DNA from: Spirochaetia bacterium
GTDB taxonomy: Bacteria; Spirochaetota; Spirochaetia; Sphaerochaetales; Sphaerochaetaceae
Length of the DNA: 64,000 nt
Assembly: GCA_022482625.1 (NCBI GenBank)
Contig: JAKVOU010000001.1
Span: 2,218,784-2,282,783, forward strand
Reading direction: 5' to 3'
Made by a program: the position numbers and the translations under genes. Under the pieces are notes generated by a model. It worked only from the letters and a program-made list of their open reading frames with translations. It made no database searches and was not told the DNA's origin. Below, one piece after another: positions 1,803 to 12,381 of the stretch; position 1 is the stretch's first letter; each line of letters starts with the position of its first letter.

Positions 1803-2313
1803 GCCCTTTCGGGTATACCTGTTGGTTGTAAATAAAAAATTACTGAGCTGTATCCTACTCTGAAATGCAACGATTTTACAGGCAGTTCATCAATTTTGTT
1901 TGGTGTGCAGGATAATGTTATTGTAATATGGGTTGACCTTAGCTTTATACAGCTACATCTTTCAATATGGACAAAAAGACCTATGCTTTTATTGGTTCAA
2001 TTTTCGGGTCTGTATGATTTCTTTGTTCTGGCAAATAGCTTCCTTCCATTTCTTTCTGATAGGCTATTTTTGCATGACTATTCTCGAAAGATTTTCTCCT
2101 TTCTTCCTCAATCCAGTGTATAGTGAAATTGATGACAGAATATTCTTTAGAAAAACTGACTGTTTGCTTGTTGTAATTGTTTAAGGGACGTTGTGTTTGG
2201 GATGGTCTGGAAAGATTTCCTTTTCCATCATCAATCAGGGCTATTGGACATTCTGAAAATGCTGTTGCACCAGCATAGCTGGGCATAAGCCTATTCCATA
2301 TCAGAGGAATGAA
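1803..2313 (+). other. AT-rich intergenic region, no gene recognised
   Basis: About 510 bases between the rRNA terminator and the DUF1538 gene. Short open frames exist on both strands, but none has a convincing start, ribosome site or recognisable protein. A minus-strand frame (1981-2613) runs back into the DUF1538 gene and looks like chance. The region must hold the promoter of the downstream pair; I could not fix it confidently. Confidence 0.5.
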
Positions 2314-3840
2314 GTGAACCTGCTGACAAAACTTAAAGATACGGTGATTTCCGTTGTTCCCCTCATGATGATTGTATTGATTCTTCATTTTTTTGTATTT
2401 CCTTTGCCGAAAACCATACTTATGGACTTTCTCATCGGAGGTATCTTGCTGATTCTTGGTTTGTCTGTTTTTCTTCTTGGTGCCGAAATTGGAATGGTAC
2501 CCATTGGACAGAAAGTAGGTTCTTCCTTGACAAGGAAAAGGAATCTTCCTCTTATACTTGTCATTGGATTTGTTGTTGGTTTTGCCCTTTCCGTTGCGGA
2601 GCCAGATATCCAAGTCCTTGCATCCCAGGTCGCAGACGCCGATGCTTCCATTACTTGTACTTCTCTGATCATGATGATTTCTATCGGTGTGGGATTGTTT
2701 GTCTCGATGGCTTTTGCAAGAACTATTTTTCAGGTTCCGCTTAAATGGTTGTTTTCTGTTTTTTATGGTATTGTCTTTATCTTGACGGCAGTAGTGCGTC
2801 CTGAATTCGTGGGGATTGCCTTTGATGCCGGAGGTGCTACGACAGGTCCGATGACAGTTCCTTTTATCATGGCACTCGGACTTGGCGTAGCCTCTGTCAG
2901 GAGAAATGTATCTATTTCAAGCGTAGAGAATGATAGCTTCGGATTTGTAGGTGTTGCTTCTATCGGTCCAATTCTTGCCGTTTTGTTAATGGGACTGATT
3001 TCGGACGGTGCAGCGGGGACTACTTCGCAAGCCGTCTCTGTCGAGGCATTTTCCACAGGAACTATCATTCAACATTTTCTGGGGTTGTTGCCTGGTATAT
3101 CCAAAGAAGCACTGAAAGCATTGCTTCCGCTTTCCTTTATTCTCCTTGCGTTTCAAGTGACATTGCTCCATATGCCGAGGCACCAAGTGAAGAAGACCAT
3201 CCTTGGCTTATTCTATACGTTTGTTGGATTGGTAGTATTCCTTGTCGGAACCAATGGTGGGTTTATGCCTGCAGGGAAGGTCTTGGGAGCAGAAATCGGT
3301 AACTTGGGTGACGGATGGGCTCTTTTTCCCATTGGATTGTTGTTCGGTGCAGTAGTAGTATGCGCCGAACCGGCTGTCTGGGTCCTGACCGATCAGGTTG
3401 AAGAGGTATCTGGAGGACACATCCGACGTCCCCTGATGCTGATTGCACTTGCGATAGGAGTCGGTACAGCCGTTGCGCTTTCGATGTTGCGGGTCGTCGC
3501 CGGCATAAACCTTGTGTGGTTTTTGCTTGCGGGATATGGCATCGCCTTGATTATGACTTTTTTTTGTCCTCCTTTATTTACAGCTATTGCATTTGATTCT
3601 GGTGGTGTAGCTACAGGACCGCTGTCTTCGACCTTTATCCTGTCGTTCGCTCTAGGAGCGTCAGTAGCTTTTGATGGCAATCCGACAACCGATGCGTTCG
3701 GCATACTTGCAATGATTGCGATGACACCGTTGATTGCAATTCAGACGCTTGGTTTGATTTATAAGAAAAAGCAACATACAATGAAAAAGCTTAAGGACCG
3801 GCATAAGGCGCAAACAGCATCTGTGAGGGACAAAATATGA
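2314..3840 (+). CDS. DUF1538 membrane protein, fused double-domain form (UmpA/UmpB-like)
   Basis: Polytopic inner-membrane protein of 508 residues made of two homologous DUF1538 halves. The halves repeat the same motifs: an acidic AEP motif (95-97 and 351-353), FDAGG/FDSGG followed by TGP (170-179 and 427-436), and a GAEIG/GTNGG glycine segment (56-60 and 312-316). Many hydrophobic helices are visible. A two-protein DUF1538 system (UmpA/UmpB) has been described as a cation/proton antiporter in a halophile; whether this protein does the same is inference. The start is GTG, because an ATG five bases upstream meets a stop after two codons; AGAGGAA lies just upstream. It overlaps the PII-like gene by four bases, so the two are translationally coupled. 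Confidence 0.85.
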   Translation: MNLLTKLKDTVISVVPLMMIVLILHFFVFPLPKTILMDFLIGGILLILGLSVFLLGAEIGMVPIGQKVGSSLTRKRNLPLILVIGFVVGFALSVAEPDIQVLASQVADADASITCTSLIMMISIGVGLFVSMAFARTIFQVPLKWLFSVFYGIVFILTAVVRPEFVGIAFDAGGATTGPMTVPFIMALGLGVASVRRNVSISSVENDSFGFVGVASIGPILAVLLMGLISDGAAGTTSQAVSVEAFSTGTIIQHFLGLLPGISKEALKALLPLSFILLAFQVTLLHMPRHQVKKTILGLFYTFVGLVVFLVGTNGGFMPAGKVLGAEIGNLGDGWALFPIGLLFGAVVVCAEPAVWVLTDQVEEVSGGHIRRPLMLIALAIGVGTAVALSMLRVVAGINLVWFLLAGYGIALIMTFFCPPLFTAIAFDSGGVATGPLSSTFILSFALGASVAFDGNPTTDAFGILAMIAMTPLIAIQTLGLIYKKKQHTMKKLKDRHKAQTASVRDKI

Positions 3841-4532
3841 TAGACAGAAACGGAAATACAACTACGGTTTTTCGTCCTGGAAAACTATTGCTGACCATTA
3901 TCGGAAGGCATCAGGGGGAACGTTTAGTCAACGCAGGAAGGGCCGCAGGGGCAATGGGAGGAACAATTCTGCTTGGGCGTGGTACCGCTACCAATCGAGT
4001 GCTTGCGGCGTTGGGTATAGGTGATACGGCCAAAGATGTTTTGCTTACGCTTCTTGATGATGGCCAGACTGAAGCTGTCAAATCTGCGCATATTTCGGCT
4101 GCAAAAAAAGATACTAGACACTTGTCAGGCATAGGGATGTTGCTTGATGTCGCCGGAATTTTACGACAAAAGGAGTATGACGAAATGGAAAACCATGCCA
4201 ATGAAAGGATGGGGGGAACAATGGAAACAAAATGGAAATTGATATCCGTCATTGTCAACCAGGGATATGCAGATGAAGCAATGGTTGCGGCGCGTAAAGC
4301 AGGAGCTGAGGGCGGGACAATCCTTACCGGAAGGGGCACAGGAACAGAAAAGGATGTGAAATTCTTCGGTATCAGTCTGGTACCGGAGAAAGAGCTGCTG
4401 CTGATCCTTTCTCAAAGCGAGAAGGTGGAACGGATATTGAATGCGATGCGCTGTGAGACATGTTTGCAGGAACCTGGAAGCGGAATTGTATTCTGTATGG
4501 CTGTAGAAGATTTTTTCCCTTTGGGAAAATAA
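3837..4532 (+). CDS. Tandem PII-like regulatory protein
   Basis: Cytosolic protein of 231 residues with two PII-like domains, about 12-110 and 132-225. Each carries the same glycine-rich segment (GGTILLGRGT at 41-50, GGTILTGRGT at 159-168), which sits where the T-loop region of PII proteins lies. PII proteins bind nucleotides and small metabolites and control membrane transporters or enzymes by contact. The start ATG overlaps the stop of the DUF1538 gene (ATGA), and the duplicated architecture matches the duplicated transporter, so I infer that this protein gates or senses for that transporter. It is not GlnB/GlnK: the usual uridylylated-tyrosine T-loop sequence is not seen. The ligand is unknown. 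Confidence 0.8.
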   Translation: MIDRNGNTTTVFRPGKLLLTIIGRHQGERLVNAGRAAGAMGGTILLGRGTATNRVLAALGIGDTAKDVLLTLLDDGQTEAVKSAHISAAKKDTRHLSGIGMLLDVAGILRQKEYDEMENHANERMGGTMETKWKLISVIVNQGYADEAMVAARKAGAEGGTILTGRGTGTEKDVKFFGISLVPEKELLLILSQSEKVERILNAMRCETCLQEPGSGIVFCMAVEDFFPLGK

Positions 4533-4834
4533 TGTCCGGAACTTTTCTGATTGCAATTGTCTTGTTTCTTGACATTCATTTTGAATGGGGCACATTGAAA
4601 TTCATCTAAAAATATTGTAGCAATTGAACTTTTTGTTCTGGATGCAGTCAGAAGATCTGATACTGGGCTGATGTATGCAGGATAATGACGCTTTCTGTTT
4701 CGTTGACAAAAGATGTTCTGCTATCAGAGACAGAACAAAACGGGTGTTTTCTTGCCATGGTTCCATGGCTTGAGGTTATATCTGATTTTCTCTGGGGATT
4801 GCTGTTGTAAAATTTATATATAATATTGTCCGGC
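4533..4834 (+). other. Non-coding region with two inverted repeats
   Basis: No gene seen. Two symmetric elements stand out: TGTTCTG at 4714-4720 pairs with CAGAACA at 4731-4737, and GCCATGG at 4754-4760 pairs with CCATGGC at 4763-4769 (two-base centre). Neither is followed by a T run, so they are not typical terminators. They may be transcript 3' structures or binding sites. Confidence 0.45.
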
Positions 4835-4890
4835 TTGTTTATCATTGTAATTTTGTGGGATAATATATATAATCAGTTTAGATTATCCCA
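4835..4890 (+). promoter_or_regulatory. Promoter with overlapping operator-like dyad (ATPase gene)
   Basis: TTGTTT (4835-4840) and GATAAT (4859-4864) form a sigma-70-like pair with an 18-base spacer. A perfect inverted repeat, TGGGATAAT (4856-4864) and ATTATCCCA (4882-4890), covers the -10 and the likely start site. It ends 17 bases before the ATG and just before the AAGGAG ribosome site. The arrangement suggests a repressor site; the repressor is not identified. Confidence 0.55.
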
Positions 4891-4907
4891 TAATAAGGAG
4901 CACCAAT

Positions 4908-6134
4908 ATGCATTTTATCCCACGTCAGGCAGAACAGACTTTAAAAAGGCTTGCAAATTCATTTCCTGCTGTATTGGTTGTAGGTGCACGTCAGACAGGA
5001 AAAACGACGTTGATCAGGAACTCAGCAGTTGCTTTATCTGCGAACTATGTAACATTTGATGATATTAATGAAATACAATCCGTTGCGGCCGATGCCAAGA
5101 CATATCTCGAGTTCCATCGTTCCCCTGTTATCTTTGATGAGATACAGCATGTGCCGAATCTTTTTCCATACCTGAAAATGGAAATTGATGAAAACCGTCA
5201 TCCCGGGATGTTTTTCTTGACAGGCAGCCAGCGTTTTTCAATGATGAAACATGTTACAGAAAGCCTTGCCGGACGTATTGGCATTTTGCAATTGCCTGGT
5301 ATTTCTTTGAGAGAACGTTTGGCTGATACATGTACTGAACCCTTTGTACCGTCGAAACAATTCCTTGTTCGACGTACCGTTCCTGCCAGAATCGATTCGA
5401 TCGGAACTTTATGGACGATGATCCAGAAAGGTTCTTATCCTGAAATCGTTACAGGAAATGTTCTGCCGGAAGATTTCTATGGTTCCTATCTGCAGACGTA
5501 TATAGAACGGGATGTCCGACAGCTGACGCAGGTTGCTGATGAACTTCAGTTCAGTAACTTTGTCGTTGCTGTAGCTGCGCGGACTGGCCATTTGGTCAAT
5601 TATGCAGATTTGGCACGCGATATTGGCATCAGTGAAGTAACTGCCAAGAAATGGCTTTCAATTCTTGTTACTTCGGGATTGGTATATTTGCTTCAGCCAT
5701 ATTCGGCAAATGTAGAGAAGCGGGTCGTAAAGACTCCGAAACTTTATTTCATGGACACTGGTCTTGCTGCGTTTCTAACGAAATGGCGTACGTCTGAAGT
5801 CTTGATGACGGGTGCAATGGCAGGGACTTATTTTGAGACTTTCGTCGTGACCGAGATTATAAAAAGTTATTTGAATGCAGGACAGATACCGCCGGTTTAT
5901 TTCTATCGGGATAAGGATAAGATTGAAATAGATCTGCTTATAGAATCAGAAGGTACATTATACCCTGTGGAAATAAAAAAAACAGTAAGCCCTGCAAAAA
6001 AAGATATTGCTGCTTTTTCCATATTGTCACGTATCAGGAATGTGAACATAGGAACAGGAGCTGTTATCTGTCCCTGTACCAAGTTGGGTATCCTGAGCTC
6101 TGATGTGTATACGGTACCAGTTGATTATATCTGA
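4908..6134 (+). CDS. AAA-family ATPase with C-terminal DUF4143 domain
   Basis: A 408-residue protein of the widespread AAA_14/DUF4143 group. Walker A is at 26-33 (GARQTGKT), Walker B at 73-80 (PVIFDEIQ), and a sensor-like LTGSQ at 104-108. The C-terminal half (about 190-408) is DUF4143 and contains a segment reminiscent of PD-(D/E)xK nucleases (EIDLLIE, then YPVEIKK). Members are common as single genes in bacteria and archaea, and their cellular role is not settled. The start at 4908 has AAGGAG nine bases upstream. It stands alone, with its own promoter and dyad, unlike the housekeeping genes around it. Confidence 0.85.
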   Translation: MHFIPRQAEQTLKRLANSFPAVLVVGARQTGKTTLIRNSAVALSANYVTFDDINEIQSVAADAKTYLEFHRSPVIFDEIQHVPNLFPYLKMEIDENRHPGMFFLTGSQRFSMMKHVTESLAGRIGILQLPGISLRERLADTCTEPFVPSKQFLVRRTVPARIDSIGTLWTMIQKGSYPEIVTGNVLPEDFYGSYLQTYIERDVRQLTQVADELQFSNFVVAVAARTGHLVNYADLARDIGISEVTAKKWLSILVTSGLVYLLQPYSANVEKRVVKTPKLYFMDTGLAAFLTKWRTSEVLMTGAMAGTYFETFVVTEIIKSYLNAGQIPPVYFYRDKDKIEIDLLIESEGTLYPVEIKKTVSPAKKDIAAFSILSRIRNVNIGTGAVICPCTKLGILSSDVYTVPVDYI

Positions 6135-6331
6135 ATGCTGAGTATGTTTTTTTTGCAAGGATGCAATGTGAAAAGGTCTTTATTCTGTGAGCAGGTGTTC
6201 TGGTGCTTGGTGTAACGGGTGATAGATCTTATGCAATTGCAATGAAGTTCAATAAAAACAGATATTGCTTCTGAAATTTTTTCTTATTATGTTTATATCA
6301 TGGATTACATTTCTTTTTGAGGAGGGAAAAA

Positions 6332-6853
6332 ATGGATACGGTTCTTGAAAACATACTGACGAGAACGAGCGTCAGGAGCTATACAGAAAAGAAAATTGAT
6401 TCACAGACGCTTGAACTGTTGCTAAAAGCAGGAATGGCTGCTCCTTCTGCCATGAACAGGCAGCCCTGGCGCTTCATTTTAATTACGGAAAGGGCTGTCC
6501 TTGATTCTTTGGCAACCAGACTTCCATATGCAAAGATGGCAGCAGAAGCACAGGCGGGAATAGTAGTCTGTGGTGACATGGATGCAACAGGAGAGGGGGA
6601 AAAGGACCTTATGTGGGTTTCTGATTGTTCCGCAGCGACAGAGAACATCCTTCTGGCGGCACATGCTCTTGGACTGGGAGCTGTGTGGACAGCTGTATAT
6701 CCTGTGAGAGACCGGATGGAGACTGTTGTTGATGTATTGCATCTGCCCTCCAAGATAGTTCCTCTTTGTTTTGTTCCTGTCGGATATCCGGTGGGTACGG
6801 AACGCGTAAAAGAAAAATTCAAGAAAGACAACATTCATTTGAATCGATGGTAA
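6332..6853 (+). CDS. Nitroreductase family protein
   Basis: Predicted FMN-dependent oxidoreductase of 173 residues, reducing nitro compounds, quinones or related substrates with NAD(P)H. The N-terminus shows the family signature TRTSVRSY, then a helix and APSAMNRQPWRF, where the Ser and Asn-Arg-Gln residues contact FMN. The C-terminal part has LGLGAVW and PVGYP, also typical. The ATG at 6332 is chosen because GAGGAGGG lies just before it; an upstream TTG would bury that ribosome site. It is the last gene before the rRNA operon promoter. The true substrate cannot be told. Confidence 0.85.
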   Translation: MDTVLENILTRTSVRSYTEKKIDSQTLELLLKAGMAAPSAMNRQPWRFILITERAVLDSLATRLPYAKMAAEAQAGIVVCGDMDATGEGEKDLMWVSDCSAATENILLAAHALGLGAVWTAVYPVRDRMETVVDVLHLPSKIVPLCFVPVGYPVGTERVKEKFKKDNIHLNRW

Positions 6854-6958
6854 ACATCGTCTGAATGCCTTTTCTTTGCTGTTTAAGCACTAAAGTAGCA
6901 GTTGAAAAGTGATGATGGAGTCTGCAAAAAAAAGTTGTAATAAAATTTGTCTGAACTA

Positions 6959-6988
6959 TTGACTAGAGTAGGGCAAATCTGCTATGTT
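6959..6988 (+). promoter_or_regulatory. Promoter of rRNA operon 2
   Basis: TTGACT (6959-6964) and TATGTT (6983-6988) are separated by 18 bases. They lie about 270 bases before the mature 16S start, the usual distance for a leader with processing sites. The same TATGTT -10 occurs at the tRNA-Thr promoter further on. Confidence 0.6.
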
Positions 6989-7255
6989 GACCGAGCGCTT
7001 CGAGAGGAGCGCCTGAGAGCAGGAGGCCGGGGAGACCCGGGGACTGCAGGTCTTTTTTAGAAGAAGAGCGAAGGGGAGACGAGAAATGGAAGGAAGCCGA
7101 CCGGCCGGGCGCGAGCCCGGCCGGGGGGGGCTCCCGAGTCAATTCAAGGATGAGAGAACAGACAGATTGAAGAAGTCGGTCGTGAGTTCTTGGAGCGGCA
7201 GGAGAGGACGCCGGAAATGATATCGAGCAGCGCGGGCTTCGGCCCGCGCGATATG
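6989..7255 (+). other. rRNA operon leader with two strong hairpins
   Basis: No protein gene. Two perfect GC hairpins are visible: a 10-bp stem with GCGA loop (7101-7124) and an 8-bp stem with TTCG loop (7230-7249), the second ending just before 16S. Both loops are very stable tetraloop types. They probably serve leader folding, antitermination or processing of pre-16S. Confidence 0.65.
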
Positions 7256-8801
<1,546 letters not shown>

Positions 8802-8922
8802 GCAAAGAAAGGCAGGGGGCATGCCCCGCTCACAGGCGGCGTGCCCCGGAACATATGGTGGTCCTTTTCCAGGGGGTCCCCCGGGGCTTCCTTCCGTTTC
8901 CCGTCTTCCCTGAGGCAGAGCC

Positions 8923-8996
8923 GGGGGCATGGCTCAGCTGGCTAGAGCATCGGCTTTGCAAGCCGAGGGTCGGGGGTTCGAGTCCCCCTGCCTCCA
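8923..8996 (+). tRNA. tRNA-Ala (anticodon TGC), in the 16S-23S spacer
   Basis: 74 bases folding as a cloverleaf: acceptor GGGGGCA with TGCCTCC, anticodon loop CTTTGCAAG region with TGC, T-loop GTTCGAGTC, discriminator A. The CCA end is not encoded (followed by GTGG). A spacer tRNA-Ala co-transcribed with rRNA is common. Confidence 0.95.
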
Positions 8997-9030
8997 GTGG
9001 GATGAAGGTTTTTTTGACATAGAGAGCGAA

Positions 9031-9049
9031 GGGACAGCAAGGGCAATAT

Positions 9050-9057
<8 letters not shown>
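9031..9057 (+). other. 5' strand of the 23S processing stem
   Basis: The bases just before and at the 23S 5' end (GCAATATGGTCAAGC and flanks) can pair with the 3' flank at 11986-12013 (GCTTGACCATATTG and beyond), giving a long stem with few wobble pairs. This is the expected RNase III processing stem of pre-23S. The same 3' strand exists after the operon 1 copy at 1560-1587. Confidence 0.75.

Positions 9058-12199
<3,142 letters not shown>

Positions 12200-12269: not shown

Positions 12270-12381
<112 letters not shown>

Follow-up and report, generated by a model that had tools for sequence, protein, structure and literature searches.

Several PII-type proteins are known as partners of membrane transporters. 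In the AmtB-GlnK system, an ammonium channel is blocked by a PII trimer (PMC8395244), while in the SbtA-SbtB system a PII-like protein responsive to adenine nucleotides controls a bicarbonate transporter (PMC10117731). A distinct PII clade, PII-NG, is described as having genes that cluster with those of CzcABC-type cation/proton antiporters (Sant'Anna et al. 2009, as cited in PMC7726332). On the transporter side, separate DUF1538 halves are known as UmpA and UmpB, an Na+(Li+,K+)/H+ antiporter; UmpAB of Halomonas zhaodongensis makes E. coli KNabc tolerant of salt and alkali and gives it Na+(Li+,K+)/H+ exchange, but only when both subunits are expressed, as a heterodimer; none of the ORFs (ORF1 to ORF4) on the cloned fragment that was active in E. 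coli is a PII gene (PMC5484666). The DUF1538 family also appears among the genes that predict growth pH, beside MnhB, MrpF, TrkH and KdpA (PMC13255231).

Here we analysed a 64,000-nucleotide stretch of a Spirochaetia bacterium genome (contig JAKVOU010000001.1, positions 2,218,784 to 2,282,783; hereafter the window), in which a gene for a DUF1538 transporter overlaps a gene for a tandem PII-like protein.

The transporter and its overlapping PII-like gene

The pair and its neighbourhood contain the following features, in window coordinates.

2303..2308, plus strand: Shine-Dalgarno-like AGAGGA 5' of the transporter GTG, read from the sequence
2314..3840, plus strand: transporter gene, a fused double-DUF1538 membrane protein (UmpA-UmpB-like) of 508 aa; ORF with GTG start, PF07556
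2335..3030, plus strand: DUF1538 half 1, aa 8-239, UmpA-like, from BLASTP of the halves and NCBIfam UmpA
2596..2604, plus strand: AEP motif of half 1, aa 95-97; E96 and P97 invariant (76 rows)
2821..2850, plus strand: FDAGGATTGP motif of half 1, aa 170-179; F170, D171, G173, G174, T176, T177 and P179 invariant (76 rows)
3103..3789, plus strand: DUF1538 half 2, aa 264-492, UmpB-like, from BLASTP of the halves and NCBIfam UmpB
3364..3372, plus strand: AEP motif of half 2, aa 351-353; A351, E352 and P353 invariant (76 rows)
3592..3621, plus strand: FDSGGVATGP motif of half 2, aa 427-436; F427, D428, S429, G431, V432, A433 and G435 invariant (76 rows)
3825..3830, plus strand: Shine-Dalgarno-like GAGGGA 5' of the PII-like gene, read from the sequence
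3837..3840, plus strand: ATGA, the 4-base stop/start overlap of the transporter and PII-like genes, read from the sequence
3837..4532, plus strand: tandem PII-like gene, 231 aa; ORF with ATG start, P-II match, internal repeat, AlphaFold2 pLDDT 87
3882..4148, plus strand: PII-like domain 1, about aa 16-104, degenerate; homology to domain 2, GlnK profile alignment, model with alternating strands and helices
4227..4529, plus strand: PII-like domain 2, about aa 131-231, conserved; Pfam P-II at aa 134-226, structure match
4908-6134, 3' of the PII gene: AAA_14/DUF4143 ATPase gene, in the duplicated unit
6317-6853, 3' of the PII gene: nitroreductase-family gene, in the duplicated unit
12271-12381: second 5S rRNA gene after the third rrn operon, ~84% identical to the other 5S copies

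The transporter matches Pfam DUF1538 (PF07556) in two stretches (E 2e-133, 442.6 bits against a gathering cut-off of 22.6), and a BLASTP comparison of one half with the other gives 29% identity across 233 columns (E 4e-29), which confirms that two DUF1538 halves are fused, as an earlier interpretation of the locus made from the sequence alone (the sequence-only reading) had stated. That reading had also taken AEP and FDxGGxxTGP as the conserved core of both halves, and the 76-row alignment bears this out: both motifs are present in each half, in the most conserved columns, with E96, P97, F170, D171, E352, P353, F427 and D428 invariant, so that the motifs include four invariant acidic residues. 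What is transported, left open by the sequence-only reading, is answered in part by the split homologue UmpAB, which exchanges Na+, Li+ and K+ against H+ (PMC5484666). The halves reached neither the UmpA equivalog NF041627 (161.6 bits against a cut-off of 490; best stretch aa 3-229) nor the UmpB equivalog NF041628 (146.9 bits against 500; best stretch aa 265-484), and since both scores lie far below the cut-offs, the substrate may differ from that of UmpAB.

In the AlphaFold2 model of the transporter (pLDDT 92.8), short helices flank both motifs. Foldseek found no match of this model to the PDB with E below 0.001, and in a second structure search the best match (VIA Z 6.9) overlapped partially; as two PDB structure searches were unconvincing and a PDB sequence search gave no match, a named fold for DUF1538 was dropped. 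The net loop charge swaps between corresponding loops of the two halves, with positive loops at 70-80, 137-145 and 193-205 in half 1 and at 282-291, 365-374 and 481-489 in half 2, an acidic linker between the halves and a basic C-terminal tail. Under the positive-inside rule, this swap points to antiparallel halves with a cytoplasmic C-terminus, and the halves are thus most likely inserted in opposite orientations; PII domains fused to such a C-terminus would need to be cytoplasmic too.

The start of the PII-like gene overlaps the stop of the transporter gene, confirming the overlap that had been proposed. Its product matches Pfam P-II in its second half only (aa 134-226; 37.6 bits, cut-off 25, E 2.9e-9) and has no NCBIfam match. 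The first half is nonetheless a PII-like domain, homologous to the second (39% identity across 67 aa, E 2e-10) and aligned end to end by the family profile with the archaeal GlnK chains 3o8w and 3t9z, so the proposed tandem fusion holds. Domain 2 adopts the PII fold, its AlphaFold2 model superposing on 1hwu with Z 11.2 and rmsd 1.9 over 83 aligned residues; the structure matches listed for the PII-like model all lie on this domain, the likeness of domain 1 to GlnK being one of sequence profile. Domain 2 holds 10 of the 11 invariant columns and domain 1 holds one.

We compared both domains with a reference sequence of E. coli GlnB. In this alignment the GlnB residues Q39, K90, R101 and R103, which serve ATP/2-oxoglutarate, are not conserved in either domain or in relatives, Tyr51 is absent from both domains and the T-loop is ~6 residues shorter, and canonical ATP/2-oxoglutarate sensing is disfavoured by the missing residues. 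The family carries the signature GGTxxxxRGxG...FGxxxxPEKE...GxGIxFxxPV, found with small changes also in the single-domain forms of Alphaproteobacteria, and in domain 2 its GGTxxxxRGxG and PEKE elements make up a highly conserved patch where an effector would usually sit. Judged from these alignments, the classical effector site is changed and a conserved patch kept, and the effector is probably not the classical pair of ATP and 2-oxoglutarate. Our best guess is an adenine-type nucleotide; given a diadenylate cyclase domain encoded in the window's genome, c-di-AMP is a candidate, though no more than that.

The locus is itself duplicated. A unit of the DUF1538, PII, AAA/DUF4143 and nitroreductase genes and an rrn operon (2097-12199) is a tandem copy, 98.9% identical to a unit 10,428 bases upstream, with three rrn operons around and between the two copies, an arrangement consistent with unequal crossing-over between rrn operons. 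Between the copies, the DUF1538 gene (2314-3840) differs at 18 bases, corresponding to 11 non-synonymous and 7 synonymous codons, and the PII gene at 5 positions, while the AAA gene differs at 2 bases and the nitroreductase gene at 4, all synonymous. With 18 DUF1538 and 5 PII differences, the second copy is unlikely to be an assembly artefact.

Conservation and architectures of the DUF1538-PII pair

The DUF1538-PII pair is real and conserved. We classified DUF1538 loci with a script and deduplicated them on the transporter sequence, which left 216 that could be judged, from Spirochaetota, Bacillota, Desulfobacterota and plasmids of Alphaproteobacteria, a sample biased to relatives of the query and best-scoring matches; PII-like domains lie directly 3' of DUF1538 or are fused to its C-terminus in 211 of them, a conserved genetic linkage of the kind found in PII-controlled transporter pairs. 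The script found a PII ORF immediately 3' at 206 loci; a divergent triple-PII ORF, missed by the script and visible in the alignment, follows at two more that are counted within the 211 (L157 and L173), and five loci have no PII directly 3'. All 80 of the 80 loci from named genomes (Treponema and other spirochaetes, Desulfovibrio, Mailhella, Clostridia) have a fused DUF1538 gene with a tandem PII gene 3' of it, in the same orientation.

The two genes also occur together across genomes. Among 393 Spirochaetota genomes, 145 carry DUF1538 and 155 match the tandem-PII profile; by hand comparison 142 have both, 3 DUF1538 only and 13 the PII profile only, several of these 13 being weak matches. The three DUF1538-only cases are a sub-threshold match (G113), a fragment (G256) and a fetched locus that stops before the next gene (G062). 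DUF1538 is present in 101 of 299 sampled genomes from the phylum of Mordavella, and DUF1538 and tandem PII lie at separate places in three genomes (G024, G338 and G409). The sequence-only reading had suggested functional coupling, and had held that common separation of the two genes in relatives would speak against it; they are together in 211 of the 216 loci, and DUF1538 lacks a PII match in 3 of the 145 Spirochaetota genomes that carry it.

Three ORFs (L225, L226 and L227) join DUF1538 in frame to a C-terminal PII domain, with a tandem PII gene just 5' in two of them and a PII ORF fragment at the contig end in the third. Together with the 211 loci, these fusions support the proposed coupling; the pairing is far beyond chance, and the fusions are the best sign of direct contact between transporter and PII, which they suggest. 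Three further long ORFs (L073, L093 and L148) were rejected as transporter-PII fusions, the transporter lying in another frame. PII and DUF1538 tree distances correlate with r 0.93 over 76 pairs, a value inflated by shared species history, and, for PII as for DUF1538, the pairs from Desulfovibrionaceae are placed close to that of the window; both observations are consistent with transfer and inheritance of the pair as a unit.

The architecture of the pair varies. The halves had been described as often separate proteins; separate and fused halves are both common, split genes being frequent in the sampled Bacillota and Desulfobacterota and fusion the rule in the sampled Spirochaetota. Split umpA-umpB-like genes accompany one PII domain at 7 loci (Methylocystis and Chelativorans plasmids, three genomes from the phylum of Desulfovibrio and two from the phylum of Mordavella), two adjacent PII genes at 6 and one tandem PII gene at 14. 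Fused transporters mostly have a tandem PII gene 3', and once two separate PII genes (L265); an ORF of ~360-420 residues with three PII-like domains lies 3' of long transporters (~620-750 residues) and of some ordinary-length ones. In triple-PII ORFs of ~380-440 aa that adjoin DUF1538 (L164, L165, L168, L174-L176), a conserved stretch close to QIIxAIDxLxGxxxWR lies between the second and third domains.

Doubling on both sides had been read as a matched, fixed stoichiometry, which we reject, as transporter and PII change their fusion state independently of each other. Given the combinations listed above, transporter fusion and PII duplication are separate events. PII proteins are generally trimeric, so two PII domains per chain are not simply matched to two transporter halves.

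Tandem PII genes have other neighbours in a few genomes. In one, DUF1538 has no PII neighbour and the tandem PII lies ~60 nt 5' of an NhaC-type Na+/H+ antiporter gene (G338, locus L221; PF03553 E 4e-56), and two genomes that lack DUF1538 have a divergent tandem PII 3' of a gene for OadB (L214, L215; PF03977), the membrane subunit of Na+-pumping decarboxylases. Both alternative partners, in these few cases, are Na+ transporters. Tandem PII genes also occur without a transporter neighbour (L211, L212 and L216). In L211 and L212 (L212:1962-4184), from related spirochaete genomes without DUF1538, the tandem PII adjoins a nucleosidase-family gene, lying in L212 between that gene and a biotin protein ligase gene; in L216 it lies upstream of a ROK-like gene.

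Proposed mechanism and rival explanations

The pair probably works as a PII-controlled cation/proton antiporter. A fuller version of this reading, to which we give about even weight for and against, takes the unit as an UmpAB-type cation/H+ antiporter with antiparallel halves under cytoplasmic regulation by a dedicated, non-canonical PII-like protein. It builds on the observed domain content, duplication, overlap, adjacency, joint inheritance, fusion and altered PII residues, with antiport taken from the homologue and also favoured by the four invariant acidic residues of the motifs, by the family's place among the growth-pH genes and by the NhaC-type partner in G338. The two genes would form one transport-control unit, in which a single-chain version of UmpAB would exchange Na+/Li+/K+ for H+ via its two homologous halves, the AEP and FDxGGxxTGP segments of each half lining the ion path. 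Translational coupling would lead to a tandem PII-like sensor made together with the transporter, which would most likely dock at the cytoplasmic face near the basic C-terminal tail; a small effector on the conserved domain 2 would then alter transport, as GlnK acts on AmtB and SbtB on SbtA. Direct binding, the direction of control and the effector are what we infer here. With its short T-loop the protein is unlikely to plug the transporter exactly as GlnK does, and the genomes with DUF1538 and tandem PII at separate places, the tandem PII genes without a transporter neighbour and the low UmpA and UmpB scores also count against this reading. In a bolder alternative, which we regard as conceivable if somewhat unlikely, DUF1538 would represent a new antiporter fold of antiparallel halves, gated by a separate PII-like branch that moved towards covalent linkage, with one, two, three or two-plus-one PII domains in a unit, and that would sense a signal other than ATP/2-oxoglutarate, for example a cyclic dinucleotide.

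The rivals differ in what they change. A PII-regulated transporter could carry a substrate other than an alkali cation, for example as an Na+-coupled carrier of a carbon or nitrogen compound, with the PII protein reporting carbon, nitrogen or energy status. The UmpA and UmpB scores well below the equivalog cut-offs would allow this, one DUF1538 member has been assayed so far (PMC5484666), and the most familiar pairings of PII-type proteins are with an ammonium channel and with a bicarbonate carrier (PMC8395244, PMC10117731); yet the motifs and invariant acidic residues are common to both halves and family-wide, the 2-oxoglutarate and ATP residues are missing from the PII protein, and the other partners of tandem PII, NhaC-type and OadB, are Na+ transporters, leaving a non-cation substrate an unlikely account. 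We give similarly little credence to a PII-like protein that senses nothing and acts as a constitutive accessory subunit or assembly factor. A structural subunit would fit the translational overlap and the fusions, as well as a degenerate domain 1 and the loss of canonical effector residues from both domains, but not the conserved GGTxxxxRGxG and PEKE patch of domain 2 at the usual effector position; moreover, because UmpAB is active in E. coli from a fragment without a PII gene (PMC5484666), the PII partner is likely regulatory rather than required.

The remaining rivals question the partnership itself. Many targets are known for canonical PII proteins, and tandem PII genes without a transporter beside them occur (L212, L216), so that the PII-like protein might serve other targets and have only its operon in common with the transporter; the covalent DUF1538-PII fusions and the near-universal adjacency across several phyla and operon layouts make this quite improbable. 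Chance or hitch-hiking neighbours without a functional link would find nothing in their favour beyond a few loose, non-adjacent cases, against adjacency in 211 of 216 distinct loci across split, fused, long and PII-fused forms; we consider this barely credible, and the locus and genome surveys reject it.

Both the DUF1538 transporter family and the principle of PII control of transporters are already known. Adjacency is visible in public annotation, RefSeq labelling the neighbours 'DUF1538 domain-containing protein' and 'P-II family nitrogen regulator'. We found no discussion of the DUF1538-PII combination or of linked two- and three-domain PII forms in the open-access literature searched, and the text of the UmpAB paper contains none of 'PII', 'P-II' or 'nitrogen' (PMC5484666). 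Should the proposed mechanism hold, PII-type switching, known for ammonium and bicarbonate uptake, would extend to monovalent cation/proton exchange, in a family that has a single characterised pair and no PDB sequence match; what is learned from one operon would bear on numerous bacteria of the gut and mouth. Natural forms carrying one, two or three linked PII domains would allow study of how unequal, joined domains rebuild a sensor that is otherwise a trimer. Under the bolder alternative, spirochaetes and clostridia would have a direct link from cell signalling to their Na+/K+ and pH homeostasis.

Comparison with known transporters and PII-type partners

The transporter is most like UmpAB, which likewise consists of two homologous DUF1538 halves, half 1 here resembling UmpA and half 2 UmpB, and whose split umpA and umpB genes overlap as well. 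It differs in that its halves form one chain, score below the equivalog cut-offs and are followed by a tandem PII-like gene. The PG0541 family (NCBIfam NF045581) has a PII-like gene overlapping a transporter ORF, as also seen in the window's own genome, in which an ORF matching the second half of an RND efflux pump overlaps a 94-aa gene of this family (L008:1450-3233); there the PII-like protein is a single short domain and the transporter is of RND type. The PII-NG system, as it is cited in PMC7726332, pairs an RND heavy-metal pump with a single-domain PII, so that its likeness to the window's pair is one of gene clustering.

AmtB-GlnK likewise pairs a transporter gene with a PII-type gene (PMC8395244), but AmtB is unrelated to the window's transporter and its PII is single where this one is tandem. 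Compared with GlnK, the window's PII-like protein has a shorter T-loop, no Tyr51 and none of the canonical ATP/2-oxoglutarate residues. The window's genome also contains an Amt-PII fusion, a single 562-aa ORF (L005:1471-3159) that joins an ammonium transporter domain to a canonical P-II domain on its C-terminal side. SbtA-SbtB is the closest proposed functional analogue, a transporter under the control of a nucleotide-reading PII-like protein, although SbtA is unrelated to the window's transporter and SbtB is a single-domain trimer with an R-loop (PMC10117731).
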